In this document: piece after piece, positions 50,740 through 56,699 of the stretch
How the letters are laid out: each line of letters starts with the position of its first letter
Position numbering within the stretch: the first letter of the stretch is position 1
Assembly (NCBI RefSeq): GCF_001428335.1
Contig: NZ_LMSG01000021.1
Location: forward strand, 1 to 64,000
Source of the DNA: Arthrobacter sp. Soil762
Lineage (GTDB): Bacteria > Actinomycetota > Actinomycetes > Actinomycetales > Micrococcaceae
Direction of reading: 5' to 3'
DNA length: 64,000 bases
Notes under the pieces: model-generated
The model's database searches: none
Told to the model about the DNA's origin: nothing
What the model saw: the letters and a program-made list of their open reading frames with translations, nothing else
Translations under genes and position numbers: made by a program

Positions 50740-50784
50740 AACTTAAAAACCGCCTGTCCCTGTTTACCTGCGTGTGCCAAGGGG

Positions 50785-50837
50785 TAGTCTTCTTCCTAAG
50801 CGGGGGAGCGATGGGGCTTATCCCGCTTTAGTGGGAT
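50785..50837 (+). promoter_or_regulatory. Promoter -10 and alternative-hairpin leader of the first LuxR gene
   Basis: TTTACC (50763-50768), a 16-base spacer and TAGTCT (50785-50790) form a plausible promoter, placing the mRNA 5' end near 50797. The leader can form AAGCGGG/CCCGCTT (50798-50804 with 50822-50828) or ATCCC/GGGAT (50820-50824 with 50833-50837). These share the CCC at 50822-50824, so they exclude each other, and the second is close to the ribosome site. Confidence 0.4.
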
Positions 50838-50852
50838 GTAGGGGACAAGTTC

Positions 50853-53591
50853 ATGTCAATCGAGCCACTCAGCTGGGGACGTGGGTCACCGCTCAACGAC
50901 CTTGAGCTGCGCACCGACACTGCAGGCGTGTCAGAGCCGCAGCGTTGGTCCGTGCCCGCACGGAGCGCCAACCTCGAAGCGGTCCGCGCCGCCCTGACCA
51001 GCCCCGACTCCCTGGGAGTCGTCATCACCGGCGGACGCGGTGTAGGTAAGTCATCCTTGGCCAGGACAGCTGTCGCCGACCTTGGCCCGGATATCTGGAC
51101 GTTGCAGCTGCGCAGCGGACCGTCGTCCGGCAGAACACCTTACGGTTGCCTGGCATTCCTGCTGGCGCGTCTTCCCCAGGCGTACATGGGGTCGCCCACA
51201 GCCATTCTCCGTGGCATTACGTCGCTCATCAAAAGCGATGCCGCGGGGCGCCAGTGTGTCATCACCCTGGACACCGCCGGCAGCATTGATGATATGAGCG
51301 CTGGCGTCCTGCTCAACATCCTCCTGACCGGGACCGCCCGCATGGTGGCCGTGGCGCCTATGGTCAGTGATCTACCGGCCGACTTCCACTGGCTCCTCAA
51401 CGACCGCCGGCTCACCGAGGTCAGGCTGGACAACCTCAATGAGCTGCAGACCCGCCAGGTGCTGCTTTCCCTGCTGGGCCACCGCGTTTCGGCCTCCCTG
51501 GTCAGCACTTTCCACACCATGGTTGGCGGCAACCCCCTGCTCCTGAAAGCGCTTGTAACCGAGCAGCAGCATTCGGGGAACCTGGTTCTGTCGGACTCCG
51601 TCTGGACTCTTCGGGACAAGGTGGTGCTCGACGGCGCGGCCAGCCTCGACGACATCGTCCGGTCCCAGTGGACCCGGAAGTCTCCTGAGGAACGGGATGT
51701 CATCGAGATGCTCTCGTGCGCCCGCAGCGTGGAACTGTCCAGGCTGACCAAAGTGTACGGTGCCGGTGTGGTGGCTGACATGGAAGATTCGGGCCTGCTG
51801 GAGATCGATTCCTCGGACAACCGATGGGTTTCACTGCGTGAAAAGTACCTCGGCGACGTTGTCCGCTCCTGGCTCAGCATCACTCGGCGAAGGGAACTGC
51901 GGAGCCTGCTCCTGGGCGGCAAGGAACCTGACCCTGCCACGATGACGGTGGAAGAACTGATGGCGTTCGGCGCCTGGACCCAGGAATGCGAGGCCGAGCT
52001 GAGTCCGGCCATGGCGCTGGCCGCCGCCGAAGCCGCAGTGCAGCTCTTTGACCCCCATTTTGCACTCAAGTATGCCGACACTCTGAAGCGGAACGACCCT
52101 CAATGGGTGCCTGCCCAGCGGCAGAAAGCGGCAGCGTACCTGCTCATGGACCTCCCGGTGCAGGCCATGGCAGCACTGGACGATATTTCCCAGCCGCAGC
52201 TGGACAACCTGGACGTTGAGGAGTTCGCCCGGGTGGTCGAGGCCAAATCCCGGGTCATGGTCTGGCTCCCCGAATACACCGCCCGGGTGCCGGCGCTGCT
52301 GCAGACGGCACGGGAGCGGCTGGGCGTGGAACCAGGAATCGCGAAGGGCTGGCCGGAGCCGCTGGCTGCTGCGGCCAACCGGATCAGCCTCAGCGAATTC
52401 GAGTACCAGGCTTTTGTGGGGGACTACGCCTCCGCCTTGACGGCACTGGAAGCCGCTGCGGACCCCGGGCAGAATCCGGACACCTGGTTCAGGATGAACT
52501 CAGCAGTGATCCTCATGAGCGCCCTGTCCATGGCCGGGCGGGAAATGGACGCGCTGAGCCTGATGAGGCAGCTGGGCGGGCAGATCTCGGACGCTGCCGA
52601 CATCGTGGGGCTGCGCGAGAGGTTCGCCGGCCGGGCGTACAACGTGCTCCTGATGGCAGGGCAATGGCGCCGGTGCATCGACCTCCTGGATCCGCCTTCC
52701 GCGCGCGAGTTCCACCGGCTCCCTTACCGGAGCGCCGCCGCGGAGCTAGCGGCCGGCATCGCCTACGTGTACTCGGGCCGCGGCGCCGTTGCCCTTGATT
52801 CGCTGCTCTCGGCCGCTGCACAGCTGGAACTGCGGCCCGTCCAGAGCCTGCTCCGCGCCGCCTACGCCGCCATCGCCTTCGCGTATGCGCAGATCGGCAA
52901 TGCCGGGCAGTCCCGGCAGTATCTTGACCGGCTGCAGCGGACGGCGGGTGCCGCTGACCATGCCACCCGGAGCCGTACTGAATTCTGCGCTGACATGGCC
53001 GCCCGATGGCTGGGGGACAATGACGCAGCCACCCGCCTCAAGCAGTCAGCCCGCCGTGACATCGCAGCAGGCAGGTTCACCCTGGCCGGGATCAGCCTGC
53101 TCGGAGCCACGGTCAACGGCACGGAAGCGGACTTCCGGCTGATGGAACAAGTGGCCGGGCAACGCCAGGGCCCCTTGGCGGAAATTTCGCGGCTTGTCGC
53201 CGTGGGCAGCCGCACCCACGACGCCAAAACGTTGCTTGCCGGCGGGGAACTGGCGGCCACCCTGGAACTGGATGCCGTTGAGGCCCGGTGCATGGCGCTG
53301 GCCGTGGACTACGCCCGGCAGGCCGGTGATTCGGTTTCCGCCAGGACTGCACAGGCCCGATTGGACATCCTCGCAGCCACCGTGGCAAGCCTGCCGATCG
53401 TGCCGAGCAGCGGCAGCCCGCTGCTGACCGCCAGGGAGAGGCAGATCGCGCGGCTGGCCGGCCGGGGCGCGTCCAACCGCGATATCGCCGTGGAGATGGG
53501 CGTGTCCGTGCGCACTGTGGAAGGCCACCTTTACCAGGTCTTTACCAAGCTCGGAGTTACATCCAGGGGTGATCTGACTGGACTCGTCTAA
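50853..53591 (+). CDS. Large ATPase/LuxR-type transcriptional regulator (first of pair)
   Basis: 912 residues. Walker A 'GGRGVGKSS' at 60-68 and a Walker B-like strand 'VITLD' at 136-140, where the second acidic residue expected next to the aspartate is replaced (LDTAG). A long helical-repeat (TPR-like) middle runs from about 350 to 830, and the C-terminal LuxR helix-turn-helix is 'LTARERQIARLAGRGASNRDIAVEMGVSVRTVEGHLYQVFTKLGV' (about 854-898). This is the LAL/STAND layout in which a ligand and ATP switch DNA binding. Its targets and inducer are unknown. GGGGAC precedes the ATG. The following gene overlaps its end by 14 bases. Confidence 0.88.
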   Translation: MSIEPLSWGRGSPLNDLELRTDTAGVSEPQRWSVPARSANLEAVRAALTSPDSLGVVITGGRGVGKSSLARTAVADLGPDIWTLQLRSGPSSGRTPYGCLAFLLARLPQAYMGSPTAILRGITSLIKSDAAGRQCVITLDTAGSIDDMSAGVLLNILLTGTARMVAVAPMVSDLPADFHWLLNDRRLTEVRLDNLNELQTRQVLLSLLGHRVSASLVSTFHTMVGGNPLLLKALVTEQQHSGNLVLSDSVWTLRDKVVLDGAASLDDIVRSQWTRKSPEERDVIEMLSCARSVELSRLTKVYGAGVVADMEDSGLLEIDSSDNRWVSLREKYLGDVVRSWLSITRRRELRSLLLGGKEPDPATMTVEELMAFGAWTQECEAELSPAMALAAAEAAVQLFDPHFALKYADTLKRNDPQWVPAQRQKAAAYLLMDLPVQAMAALDDISQPQLDNLDVEEFARVVEAKSRVMVWLPEYTARVPALLQTARERLGVEPGIAKGWPEPLAAAANRISLSEFEYQAFVGDYASALTALEAAADPGQNPDTWFRMNSAVILMSALSMAGREMDALSLMRQLGGQISDAADIVGLRERFAGRAYNVLLMAGQWRRCIDLLDPPSAREFHRLPYRSAAAELAAGIAYVYSGRGAVALDSLLSAAAQLELRPVQSLLRAAYAAIAFAYAQIGNAGQSRQYLDRLQRTAGAADHATRSRTEFCADMAARWLGDNDAATRLKQSARRDIAAGRFTLAGISLLGATVNGTEADFRLMEQVAGQRQGPLAEISRLVAVGSRTHDAKTLLAGGELAATLELDAVEARCMALAVDYARQAGDSVSARTAQARLDILAATVASLPIVPSSGSPLLTARERQIARLAGRGASNRDIAVEMGVSVRTVEGHLYQVFTKLGVTSRGDLTGLV

Positions 53592-56298
53592 CGGCCACGC
53601 TGCCAAACAGGGAACGCCATATCGACTGCTCACGGGCCGGCGTGAGCCGCTGGACCGGATCTGCAACATCATTCGCAGCCGCACGAGCCAGGCCGTGTTC
53701 CTCATGGCGGGCCCGGGCATCGGGAAGTCAACGCTGACCGAGGCCATCACCGAGCGGCTTTCCCAGGAGATGATTATTGTTCAGATCCATGGAAGTTCGT
53801 CGCTGTCCGGCGTTCCCTTTGGAGTTTTGGCGCCCTACACGGCGGAGCTGACGGCCGAAGACTCCGTGTCTTCGGTGGCTGTGCTGCGGTCCGTGTGGAG
53901 GTACTTTGAGAAGCTGAAAGCCGGCAGGGATACCCCGTTGCTTCTGATGATGGATGACGCCCATCACCTGGACGAGGCAACGGCCAGCATCGTGGCCGAC
54001 ATGATCTCCGCTGGCTGGGCCACAGTGCTTGCTGCCGGCAGGCCGCGGCCCGGGCTGCCTCAGCCGCTCGCTCAGCTCTGGTATGACGGCCTGGCTGACC
54101 GTGTGGATCTCCGACCCATGAACCGGGAGCAGGTAGAGGAAGTCCTCTCCCACGCACTTGATGGAACAATCCCCTCCGGAACCATTGACACAATCTGGAG
54201 CGCCTCTGGCGGAAATCCGCGGATTCTTGATGCCTTGCTGCATGACGCCGCGGAGCGGGGCGAACTCGCAAAGCGGAACGGGATCTGGATGCTGCTGGGC
54301 CCGTTGCCTGCCGACGGACCCAGGCTCGCCGAGGTGGTGGTGAAGGACATGCTCCGCCGCAGCCCGGAAGAGCAGGAAGTCCTGAAACTTGTCGCCCTCG
54401 CCGGGCCCGTGAGCCGGAAGGTGATCGAGGATATTTTTGGCGCTGAAGTAGTGCGCACGTTGCTGGACCAGCAGATGATGGTGGAAAGTTCCGGCATTCC
54501 AGCCGATCTCCGGATCTGGAACTCCGTGTTCGGCGAGGCGCTCCGCACAAGTATCTCGGTGTCCCGGAGCCTGCAGCTGCTTGAAAAGATCCAGGATCAG
54601 CTGGGAACCGCTCCCGAAGGGTCTGAAGGCAGGATGAGGGCCGTGGAATGGGCCCTTGAATGTGGATTGAAAATATCCGATCCCGAGCTGCTTGAGGCGG
54701 CCGGCACTGCCTTGGTCCACTCGCGGAACCGGAGCAGCCGGATGATGGCGGCGAAGGTCGCGGACCCGGACCTCGTGCCGCAGGCACAGGCCGTCCAGGG
54801 ACGCGCCTTATTCAATGAAGGCGACTTTGCGGGTGCGGCCAAGCTCCTGGACGGATGCTGGCTGCAGCTGGGGAACGGGGCCTGGGCTGTTCCGGTCCTG
54901 ATGCTCAGGGCCATGGCACACCAGGCTCTGGGAACGCCGTTGTCAGTATTCGCGGCCGATTCCCGTGAAGCGCTTCAGGGCGCAGGCGCCATGACGGCTG
55001 GCCCGGATGCTGTGCCGCCGGATTCCCAGGAGACCGCCGGTGCGCTGGCCGGGCCCTGGCAGGAGCGCTTGCTTTGCCTGCTGGAACTTTGCGAAGCAGG
55101 CAACCACCAGGCCTTGGAGGCAGAGGTCCAGGAACTTCGGAGCAGCCGCGCCGGCGATGCCACGGACGACGCCCTGTGTGCCGTGGGCCTGGCGCTGCTG
55201 GCCCATTCGCTCGCCCCGGCCGGACGGGCCGTCCAGGGGCTGGATGCCGCATTGCTGGCCGTCTCGGAACTTCCCTCACTGCAGGGTGGCGTGTTCTTCT
55301 TCAATGAATTTGTCCTTGGCCGCCTGGTGGCAGATTACCTGGCCATGGGGGAGTGGGACTCGGCGGAACGGGAGTTGGCGAACTATGCTGCCGGGCAGCC
55401 GCGGGGTGTCGCCTATTTCGGCGGCAGCCTCGAGGTACTCCGTGGCTACTCGCTCCTGCGGCAGGGGCGGATGGAACGCGCCTACCAAACGCTGCTGCCG
55501 GCGGTGGAGACCCTGAGGCTTAACGATCCGCTGCAGATGTTCCGGTTTGGTTCCGGGCTGGCGTTTTATGTAGCGGCGAGGCTCGGCGACGCCGCCCAGG
55601 CCGGCCGGCTTGAGCTGGATTACAAGGATTCACCGCAGGGCTCCACCGGCTACGGACTCCTTGCGAGGGCGTACGCGGCAGCGGCATCGGAGTATGTGGC
55701 GCATGACGGAAAAGGCCTGGCGCGCCTCCACACACTGGCCACCACGCCCGAGGTGACCACCCGGGCCGGGACACTCCTGGAACTCTTGGCTCTCTGCTGG
55801 GACCTGGGCGACCATTCCGTGATCCCGTTGGTCCACTCACTGGCGGGGAGCGTCGAAGGCCGCTGGGCCGCGGCAATGCTCACCCTGGCTGGGCATTGGG
55901 AGTCCGAGGACGCCGATTCCATCATGGAAACGGCAGCCATGCTTGAAGGCGCGGGATTCGTTAACCTTGCGCGGGAAGCCTACGCGCGGTCGAGCACCGT
56001 CCTTGAGAGCTCCGGTGAGCGCCGGCGGGCCCGTCAGGCGGTTGCCCTGCGGGAGAAGTGCGACCACGAACTGGGCGAGCGGTTCCGGGAAGGCCACTTC
56101 ATCGCCGCAGCACCCAGCGTGCACCTCACCCGCCGGGAACAGGACATCGTAGAGCTCGCTGTGAAAGGTCTCACGGACCGGGAGATCGCACAAAGACTCA
56201 TGGTGTCCGTGCGTACTGTGGAGGGCCACCTCTACCGCACGTACGTCAAACTCGGCGTGCGGAGCCGCGACGAACTGGCTACAGCCCTTCCGCACTAG
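53578..56298 (+). CDS. Large ATPase/LuxR-type transcriptional regulator (second of pair)
   Basis: 906 residues from a CTG start. The next possible start, GTG at 53695, is only six residues before Walker A 'GPGIGKST' (45-52) and would delete the preceding helix 'RREPLDRICNIIRSRTSQAVF', which belongs to the fold. CTG at 53578 has AGGGG eight bases upstream and overlaps the previous stop. Walker B 'LLLMMDDAHHLDE' (121-133) is complete, unlike that of its partner. Helical repeats span roughly 370-830, ending in a LuxR domain 'LTRREQDIVELAVKGLTDREIAQRLMVSVRTVEGHLYRTYVKLGVRSRDEL'. Co-translation suggests the two proteins work together; function unknown. Confidence 0.86.
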   Translation: MDSSNGHAAKQGTPYRLLTGRREPLDRICNIIRSRTSQAVFLMAGPGIGKSTLTEAITERLSQEMIIVQIHGSSSLSGVPFGVLAPYTAELTAEDSVSSVAVLRSVWRYFEKLKAGRDTPLLLMMDDAHHLDEATASIVADMISAGWATVLAAGRPRPGLPQPLAQLWYDGLADRVDLRPMNREQVEEVLSHALDGTIPSGTIDTIWSASGGNPRILDALLHDAAERGELAKRNGIWMLLGPLPADGPRLAEVVVKDMLRRSPEEQEVLKLVALAGPVSRKVIEDIFGAEVVRTLLDQQMMVESSGIPADLRIWNSVFGEALRTSISVSRSLQLLEKIQDQLGTAPEGSEGRMRAVEWALECGLKISDPELLEAAGTALVHSRNRSSRMMAAKVADPDLVPQAQAVQGRALFNEGDFAGAAKLLDGCWLQLGNGAWAVPVLMLRAMAHQALGTPLSVFAADSREALQGAGAMTAGPDAVPPDSQETAGALAGPWQERLLCLLELCEAGNHQALEAEVQELRSSRAGDATDDALCAVGLALLAHSLAPAGRAVQGLDAALLAVSELPSLQGGVFFFNEFVLGRLVADYLAMGEWDSAERELANYAAGQPRGVAYFGGSLEVLRGYSLLRQGRMERAYQTLLPAVETLRLNDPLQMFRFGSGLAFYVAARLGDAAQAGRLELDYKDSPQGSTGYGLLARAYAAAASEYVAHDGKGLARLHTLATTPEVTTRAGTLLELLALCWDLGDHSVIPLVHSLAGSVEGRWAAAMLTLAGHWESEDADSIMETAAMLEGAGFVNLAREAYARSSTVLESSGERRRARQAVALREKCDHELGERFREGHFIAAAPSVHLTRREQDIVELAVKGLTDREIAQRLMVSVRTVEGHLYRTYVKLGVRSRDELATALPH

Positions 56299-56346: not shown

Positions 56347-56524
56347 GAAACGCGTAGCCCCGGTGCAAAAAAGTAGAGTACTGCCTACTCGTGTGCTGAC
56401 CTTCAGCATGCGATTGACTTAGCGCGGCAGGAAAACACGGAGCCACCAAAACCGCGGACCGGCCAACAGACTTTCAGGCCTCATTTTGAAGCAAACTTCC
56501 GGCCCCTGGGGCTGGATCGAAGCG

Positions 56525-56645
56525 GGGCCGGCGACGTCAGAGTCTTCTGAGACCGAGACTCTCCCCCCAGCCGTCGCCGGCCCTCACTTCCGCGGGCTGA
56601 AGCCCGGAGCTGCTGTGGCGGTTGCCCATCGGGCCGCCGCCACAG
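56525..56645. other. Cluster of strong hairpins upstream of sufS
   Basis: Three structures in 120 bases. First, a compound hairpin: a 12-bp outer stem (56525-56536 with 56572-56583) and a 7-bp inner stem AGAGTCT/AGACTCT (56539-56545 with 56556-56562). Second, GGGCT-GA-AGCCC near 56594-56605. Third, CTGTGGCGG/CCGCCACAG (56613-56621 with 56637-56645). None has a U-tract. Possibilities are terminators in series, a small RNA, or a folded suf leader. The rest of 56347-56699 has no gene; a palindrome ATTGA-GTG-TCAAT lies at 56661-56673. Confidence 0.5.
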
Positions 56646-56699
56646 TGGTGTTGTGGGACAATTGAGTGTCAATCCATTGGCATCTCAAGGAGTTTAGCT

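Follow-up and report, generated by a model that had tools for sequence, protein, structure and literature searches.

A co-encoded pair of STAND/LAL-LuxR proteins with unequal Walker motifs, and a linked palindromic promoter element and structured RNA, in Arthrobacter and relatives

The stretch of DNA analyzed here (the window) consists of positions 1 to 64,000 of contig NZ_LMSG01000021.1 from Arthrobacter sp. Soil762, 64,000 nucleotides (nt) in all. At positions 50,853 to 56,298 it encodes two large proteins, termed alpha and beta, each with an N-terminal P-loop ATPase region and a C-terminal LuxR-type helix-turn-helix (HTH), and a palindromic element and a structured RNA lie just 3' of the pair. 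LAL regulators, which have this layout, are numerous in actinobacteria, and to our knowledge many of them have no known target or mechanism. The LAL family has been called poorly studied in a passage of PMC3282765.

The alpha and beta genes and their occurrence in relatives

The gene pair comprises the following features.
50853..53591, + strand: alpha, a STAND/LAL-LuxR protein of 912 residues with an ATG start, an intact P-loop and the second Walker B acid replaced (DT) (open reading frame, Pfam, structure model)
51030..51053, + strand: alpha Walker A, GGRGVGKS, K66 invariant in 46 aligned rows (alignment)
51255..51290, + strand: alpha Walker B region, CVITLDTAGSID, D140 conserved in at least 90% of rows and followed here by T (alignment)
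53424..53579, + strand: alpha C-terminal GerE/LuxR HTH, residues 858-909 (Pfam)
53578..56298, + strand: beta, a STAND/LAL-LuxR protein of 906 residues with Walker A and Walker B intact (open reading frame, Pfam, structure model)
53710..53730, + strand: beta Walker A, GPGIGKS (alignment)
53938..53973, + strand: beta Walker B, LLLMMDDAHHLD, D126 and D127 invariant in 46 aligned rows (alignment)
56125..56283, + strand: beta C-terminal GerE/LuxR HTH, residues 850-902 (Pfam)

Alpha and beta have in common an N-terminal AAA_16-type region, which scores above the Pfam gathering score in beta and below it in alpha (27.3 vs 32.6 bits), and a GerE domain that is above the gathering score in both. With about 900 residues, an N-terminal P-loop ATPase and a C-terminal LuxR HTH, both have the makeup of LAL regulators, the predicted fold adding support in the case of alpha. 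The top NCBIfam model for both was AbsR2, yet the scores (95.7 and 116 of 850 bits) were far under its cut-off; the equivalog cut-offs of IniR (54 of 750, beta only) and MalT (26.3 and 22.3 of 537 bits, over the HTH only) were not reached. The two proteins are 22% identical over 863 columns of a profile comparison, and when their own genome was searched with alpha, every match apart from alpha and beta was short and C-terminal.

The Walker B motif reads VITLDT in alpha (D140, T141) and LLMMDD in beta (D126, D127). The original prediction had described two proteins of about 910 residues with the same layout and a 14-base overlap, the first lacking the second Walker B acid and the second complete, and all of this agrees with the motifs and lengths found, the overlap given the CTG start of beta discussed below; no acid is supplied elsewhere at the alpha motif. 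The prediction had also called the first Walker B degraded and had proposed a STAND-type switch, a heteromer of an inactive sensor and an active ATPase. The second acid is indeed replaced, and the STAND fold, an ancient pairing and the pattern of one intact partner per pair (below) speak for an asymmetric pair; alpha keeps the P-loop lysine and the first aspartate, and "inactive" is too strong since the ATP-binding P-loop is kept. Judged by Walker A and both Walker B acids, beta has the full STAND site and alpha fails on the second acid, which places alpha among STAND homologs whose site is incomplete. In MalT, loss of the second acid reportedly blocks hydrolysis but not activation, and on this ground the motifs of alpha are best read as those of a protein that may bind ATP but not turn it over.

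AlphaFold models built from 46-row alignments had a mean pLDDT of 83.7 for alpha and 85.5 for beta. In beta, the model of residues 14-364 resembles CED-4 (Z 18.6, 322 residues, root-mean-square deviation 5.1) and plant NLRs (Z about 15), and that of residues 484-830 resembles MalT domain III (Z 16.8, 314 residues, root-mean-square deviation 4.5). In alpha, residues ~27-344 resemble Cdc6/ORC, NRC resistosomes, Apaf-1 and CED-4 (Z 14-15). The top structural rows for both proteins were TPR proteins such as subunits of the APC/C. Foldseek matched alpha best to 6MFV (PH0952, a STAND protein with a TPR sensor; E 8.4e-9) and to 8BOB of the maltose system, which we take to be MalT (E 2.3e-6), each with a low whole-chain query TM-score of 0.19. 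The nucleotide-binding, helical and winged-helix core and the TPR-like sensor of STAND/NOD proteins are thus matched through CED-4, the NLRs, PH0952 (6MFV) and MalT domain III, and because of these structure-model matches alpha and beta are probably STAND proteins of MalT type.

The occurrence of the pair was analyzed in genomes of the genus (121 genomes, E 1e-60, adjacency read in fetched stretches) and of the family (120 genomes, E 1e-30). Both genes matched in all genus genomes (alpha 121/121, beta 121/121), so that the observation is not due to chance. In the family set, alpha matched in 49 and beta in 59 genomes, counts that include paralogs and cross-matches, the best seven candidates at most being scored per genome. 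Separate occurrence had been raised as a point for checking, and the genus showed none. Among the 120 family genomes, 10 have a beta match and no alpha match, and 15 extra LALs stand unpaired at the family loci. Five of these ten loci were fetched (L208, L209, L210, L212 and L213), and each has a divergent alpha-type neighbour in which the Walker A lysine is replaced by Arg and the second acid is gone (SQ, EN, EH, GS and GK); beta is intact in four of them and lacks the first acid in L208. Alpha-beta-type pairs also turned up elsewhere in the order, in families represented by L197, L202, L203 and L205. The LALs outside the family are mostly solitary in the fetched stretches and score similarly against the alpha and beta profiles.

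The family stretches (100, each of 15-20 kb) make up, with the window, 101 loci and 2.0 Mb; the relatives are, by name, Pseudarthrobacter, Arthrobacter and Paenarthrobacter. The genes around the pair are presumably glmU, prs, rplY and pth on its 5' side and sufS and sufU on its 3' side, labels given by similarity. A match to pth is present in 94 of the 100 stretches and many genera share the order glmU-prs-rplY-pth-alpha-beta, which makes vertical inheritance of an ancient locus probable. From the 101 loci, 261 proteins of at least 700 residues were kept, and a quick, midpoint-rooted tree with several long branches was built from 177 of them, leaving out 34 near-duplicate loci and rows with X-runs. 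A single branch (SH-aLRT 100) divides it into 90 alpha-type rows, of which 67 stand first at their locus, 20 third and 3 later, and 87 beta-type rows, of which 66 stand second, 16 fourth or later and 5 third. This match between the two-clade split and gene position suggests that alpha-beta pairs were mostly duplicated as units. In L145, L146 and L152, the sufS and sufU matches are flanked by two alpha-beta pairs.

To compare partners, a protein was called intact when its Walker A lysine was present and each of the two Walker B positions carried an acid. There were 123 adjacent alpha-beta pairs, of which one was unscorable (X run). Exactly one partner was intact in 115 of the 122 scored pairs (beta alone in 103, alpha alone in 12), the two Walker B positions of alpha reading mostly DT or DN. 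Apart from the two pairs with both partners intact, an intact alpha goes with a beta whose Walker A lysine has become A or V or, in L133, whose second acid is gone. The fetched stretches contained 28 solitary LALs, L211 within the family and the other 27 beyond it. All but L207 and L211 were intact (26 of 28), and so were both members of a tandem outside the family (L184). A linked pair with one catalytically intact member, the arrangement of a paired STAND switch, is therefore what 115 of 122 pairs present, a likeness in logic that makes no claim of family. On the tree, competence changed six times in alpha and three times in beta, and the pair counts are not independent.

The junction of alpha and beta

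The overlap of the two genes has the following layout.
53565..53591, + strand: junction, with the Shine-Dalgarno (SD)-like sequence AGGGGTGATC at 53565-53574, TGA at 53575-53577, the CTG start of beta at 53578-53580 and the stop of alpha at 53589-53591 (61 loci, synonymous conservation)

An overlap of 14 bases requires that beta start at CTG 53578. In the beta frame this codon is directly preceded by TGA, and the first ATG, GTG or TTG is GTG 53695, five codons 5' of GPGIGKS. Across 61 loci (the window and L074-L133) the codon at this site is CTG in 48, TTG in 12 and ATG in one, L131, where the ATG falls outside the beta frame. TGA stands just 5' of the start codon in 38 of the 61; 18 of these 38 have no ATG, GTG or TTG between the CTG and the P-loop strand, and in the rest the positions of such codons vary. 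The AGGGG within the SD-like sequence lies 8 nt from the CTG. Over 47 loci and 818 windows, synonymous conservation peaks in the nine final codons of alpha (0.93 vs a mean of 0.64), and the next-highest windows lie at the extreme 5' end of alpha. Combined, the TGA/CTG context in relatives, the SD-like sequence and the synonymous constraint make it most likely that beta is translated from CTG 53578 and translationally coupled to alpha, and the predicted overlap of 14 bases would be right on that reading. Gene callers restricted to ATG, GTG and TTG would trim about 39 residues from beta, into the P-loop strand.

The beta frame reads GTG-ATC-TGA (53569-53577) in 38 of the 61 loci, and in 18 others TGC replaces TGA, so that an older GTG start may have been lost. 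The TGC in other clades had also prompted the idea of a selenocysteine at the TGA; this is needless, as the base change follows the alpha codon (ACT or CCT).

The palindromic element and the structured RNA

Three features were found between beta and sufS.
56376..56393, + strand: palindromic element GAGTACTGCCTACTCGTG, a candidate alpha-beta operator (alignment, motif counts)
56414..56419, + strand: -10-like hexamer TTGACT, exactly 20 nt past the palindromic element (motif spacing)
56524..56584, + strand: conserved structured RNA of two nested helices with a C-rich strand, probably the 3' part of a small RNA of ~56426-56590 (folding, covariation)

In an alignment of 31 sequences including the window, read in 11 of its rows, a near-invariant palindrome, GAGTAC-N4-TACTCGTG, is present 3' of beta, with a conserved hairpin further on. 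A scan of both strands of the 101 loci for its 13 fixed bases, with at most one mismatch, gave 93 matches; 88 of them, from 77 loci, fall no more than 700 nt 3' of a beta stop. The gene strand carries 78 of the matches; some sites may count on both strands because the motif is nearly palindromic. In the same 2.0 Mb the control motifs matched 2 (reversed), 2 (complemented) and 9 (half-shuffled) times, never near beta. The link with beta is kept where another LAL comes next (L117, L131, L134-L142, L148, L149 and L151; at most two mismatches). In 70 of the 78 gene-strand matches the motif is followed at a distance of exactly 20 nt by a T[AT]NNNT hexamer, which places the palindrome centre near -42. 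LuxR-type activators usually bind near this position.

Four exact copies of the palindrome are present in the genome of the window. By eye, these four and one near copy have an A-run on the 5' side and a -10-like hexamer 20 or 21 nt on the 3' side. In 41 genomes of the genus there are 119 exact copies, spread over 36 genomes, vs one control match; 23 of the 119 lie 3' of beta (picked by eye, then checked), and at least 21 lie 62-310 nt 5' of a GAF-ANTAR match (in at least 20 of the 41 genomes). The exact copy at C12:642862 of the window's own genome (L293:1501-1518) stands between two GAF-ANTAR genes and precedes one of them (Pfam ANTAR). From linkage, position and the type of HTH, we infer that alpha-beta binds the palindrome and regulates there. 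Contig C2 of the same genome has an exact and a near copy about 17 kb apart (L292:1501-1518 and L295:1501-1518). These precede a glycosyltransferase 2 gene and an open reading frame with a P-loop-like product, possibly in a surface-polysaccharide cluster. Directly 3' of an exact copy, L291:1029-1475 encodes a small protein that has hydrophobic stretches and is unmatched in Pfam.

The RNA element consists of an outer helix of 13 bp and an inner helix of 7 bp, with a conserved UGAGACC-type loop and a C-run. The surrounding 226-nt stretch folds better than 200 of 200 shuffles (z -4.1); for the inferred transcript the folding is less clear (z -2.6). When 25 sequences were aligned plainly with MAFFT, 99.6% of the pair cells were paired and 6 of the 20 pairs had double-sided changes, values that no shuffle and no slid control reached; in the count of further pair types the shuffles were not exceeded. 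A covariance model found the RNA in 42 of 42 loci L074-L115 and in 50 of 58 loci L116-L173 at E 1e-3, together 92 of the 100 family loci, and in every row among the matches listed the copy is on the strand of the LAL genes. In 48 matches, double changes reach 17 of the 20 pairs with 97.8% paired, in an alignment fitted to the model. No copy was found at E 0.1 at the LAL loci examined outside the family or at the other promoter copies tested in the window's own genome. In some genera (L161, L165-L170) a second, variant copy follows pth (for instance L161:3577-3644, L169:3716-3783, L166:1444-1511 and L167:1712-1779), most of these with a strong T-run and a palindrome-free upstream region.

A T-run closes several copies, which makes a small RNA with this hairpin at its 3' end the likeliest product; as the window copy has no T-run and the terminator scan was negative there, a leader of sufS is also possible. 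Rfam 15 gave no match at E 1 and, on a narrow stretch at E 10, seven matches that are all far under their gathering scores; a known family was rejected since no match rises above the gathering score. An ANTAR-target RNA was likewise rejected, the loop, as judged without running a model, looking unlike the A1/G4 hexaloop pair described in part of PMC8164766. Between the RNA and sufS, at 56600-56650, close relatives and the window have a second GC-rich hairpin (GTGGCGG...CCGCCAC).

The view that the pair has no obvious target apart from the downstream suf genes is probably wrong. The promoter and the RNA also follow beta elsewhere, and suf regulation as the sole output was rejected because both persist before a third LAL or where the stretch holds no sufS match.

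Upstream of the pair, one further feature was recorded.
50785..50790, + strand: -10-like hexamer TAGTCT of a candidate promoter between pth and alpha (39-row alignment by eye, TANNNT in most relatives)

The 5' untranslated region of alpha (50780-50852) is conserved. Ahead of its SD sequence lie GCGGGGGAG and a short hairpin, and it has a G-run that complements the C-run in the RNA. Base pairing between the two is not claimed, as the G-run is gone in L120, L124 and L128 where the C-run is kept. The alpha promoter was also rejected as a shared operator, its block of -10 hexamer and 5' untranslated region being single-copy in the genome.

A proposed mechanism, its alternatives and known systems

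We consider it marginally probable that alpha and beta are subunits of one MalT-like STAND transcription factor that activates the palindrome promoter. The two would be made in step, since the CTG start of beta is embedded in the last codons of alpha, and both would contact DNA via their similar LuxR HTHs. Judging from the motifs, both would bind ATP and usually only beta would hydrolyze it. An inducer bound at the TPR-like sensor of one or both partners may open the NODs, and the ATP forms would then co-assemble; in passages of PMC6468293, activation of STAND proteins is described as release of autoinhibition followed by ATP-driven multimerisation. Hydrolysis by beta would reset the switch, and the hydrolysis-poor alpha could stay ATP-bound and nucleate, stabilise or prolong the assembly. 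The active complex, as position and linkage suggest, would sit on GAGTAC-N4-TACTCGTG near -42 and activate transcription. Sites are observed at the small structured RNA after beta, at the GAF-ANTAR RNA-binding regulator gene and at a few other promoters, all of which would be targets. In its widest form, which we put forward tentatively as possible and short of probable, the locus would be an undescribed self-contained module of Arthrobacter and relatives: a coupled heteromeric STAND factor with one ATPase-competent subunit and its own palindromic promoter at an activator position, the small RNA as first and GAF-ANTAR as second output, in a relay from transcription factor to RNA.

Several observations weigh against this reading. 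Among the 122 scored pairs, both partners were intact in 2 and neither in 5, and neither was intact in two pairs outside that set (L202 and L208). The 15 unpaired further LALs at family loci comprise 7 intact proteins, 7 without the second acid and one unscorable, so that membership in the alpha clade, as much as pairing, goes with loss of the second acid. Reversal of roles amounts to about two independent events (sign test p 0.5, non-significant). For the palindrome, a TTGACA/TATAAT scan detected no promoter at this site. With two mismatches, the genome of the window gave 26 matches vs 30 for the reversed control, for which reason evidential value is given to exact copies alone, and in the 120 family genomes the motif is not over-represented (30 matches in 19 genomes vs 59 for the reversed control, hand-summed). 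The regulator could be another protein, since no gene could be assigned to 75 of the 119 genus sites, and LAL genes adjoin 11 of the 30 family matches, which partly carries the link between motif and beta. Lastly, 16 of 40 RNA copies examined have no palindrome upstream (at most three mismatches), including all seven that lie after pth or before a first LAL.

The alternative that survives best is that the palindrome promoter and the RNA belong to another regulator, alpha-beta merely neighbouring one of its targets and controlling something else. By eye, the motif is absent from the 39-row alignment upstream of alpha, and 96 of the 119 genus copies are not 3' of beta. The linkage with beta nevertheless holds family-wide while the next gene varies (a third LAL, the RNA followed by suf, or others), and 18 of the 19 motif-bearing family genomes hold beta, though with the share of LAL-adjoining matches given above; we regard this alternative as unlikely, if a serious contender. 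Ordinary tandem duplication, with alpha and beta as independent homomeric LALs and the Walker B change of alpha as tolerated drift or tuning towards a slower switch, would fit the P-loop and HTH retained in alpha and the unpaired LALs of both types at these loci, the alpha-type ones mostly lacking the acid too; APAF1 and like STAND proteins do form homomultimers, according to parts of PMC6468293. It accounts poorly for an adjacency and order that survive several block duplications, for the single intact partner in 115 of 122 pairs and for the synonymous constraint at the junction, and we judge it improbable. Alpha might instead be a pseudo-ATPase brake whose inactive mixed assemblies keep beta off DNA until a signal arrives. 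The loss of ATPase motifs from one partner, carried further in alpha of L208, L209, L210, L212 and L213 (Lys to Arg, second acid), would suit a brake; its intact and conserved HTH, and the clade in which alpha is intact and beta has lost the Walker A lysine, would not, which makes this decidedly improbable. A +1 frameshift at the junction, yielding an alpha-beta fusion of ~1,815 residues with no start of its own for beta, is highly improbable, for near-invariance of AGGGGTGATCTGACTGGACTCGTC and the lack, in 18 of the 38 loci of TGA type, of any ATG, GTG or TTG ahead of the P-loop strand are offset by the SD-like AGGGG 8 nt 5' of the CTG, by TTG at the same place in other clades and by distant pairs with separate starts, gaps or short overlaps.

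The preferred reading, a heteromeric alpha-beta factor acting at the palindrome, was compared with described systems. Our searches of open-licence papers yielded no account of the palindrome, of the RNA or of a LAL pair in which one partner is crippled; three ATPase-type LuxR-related sequences are reported for an Arthrobacter in PMC9659744, in parts of which no pair is described. The actinomycete LALs AbsR2, RevU and VemR resemble alpha and beta in size, ATP-binding N-terminus and LuxR HTH. RevU and VemR appear as lone regulators in the available parts of their descriptions, and our searches gave no published precedent for the pair, its asymmetry or the linked RNA. MalT of E. coli likewise combines a NOD-type ATPase, a helical sensor and a C-terminal LuxR HTH, but it is a single protein, whereas two divergent homologs (22% identity) form the pair here. 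The RNA after beta recalls 6C and other actinobacterial small RNAs with C-rich loops, which are short and structured and have a C run, and differs from them in having no Rfam match at E 1.

In plant paired NLRs and in NAIP/NLRC4, two STAND proteins act together, and the plant pairs are co-encoded, one member having degenerate nucleotide motifs. The likeness of alpha-beta to the plant pairs runs only through the NOD fold of the models, and its output would be DNA binding. If true, a fixed pair with an ATPase-poor partner would be a bacterial counterpart of the paired immune-type switches of plants and would extend the sensor/executor division of immune receptors to bacterial transcription control. 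The linked promoter and RNA form a ready reporter, so that the signal sensed by such a regulator is directly testable.

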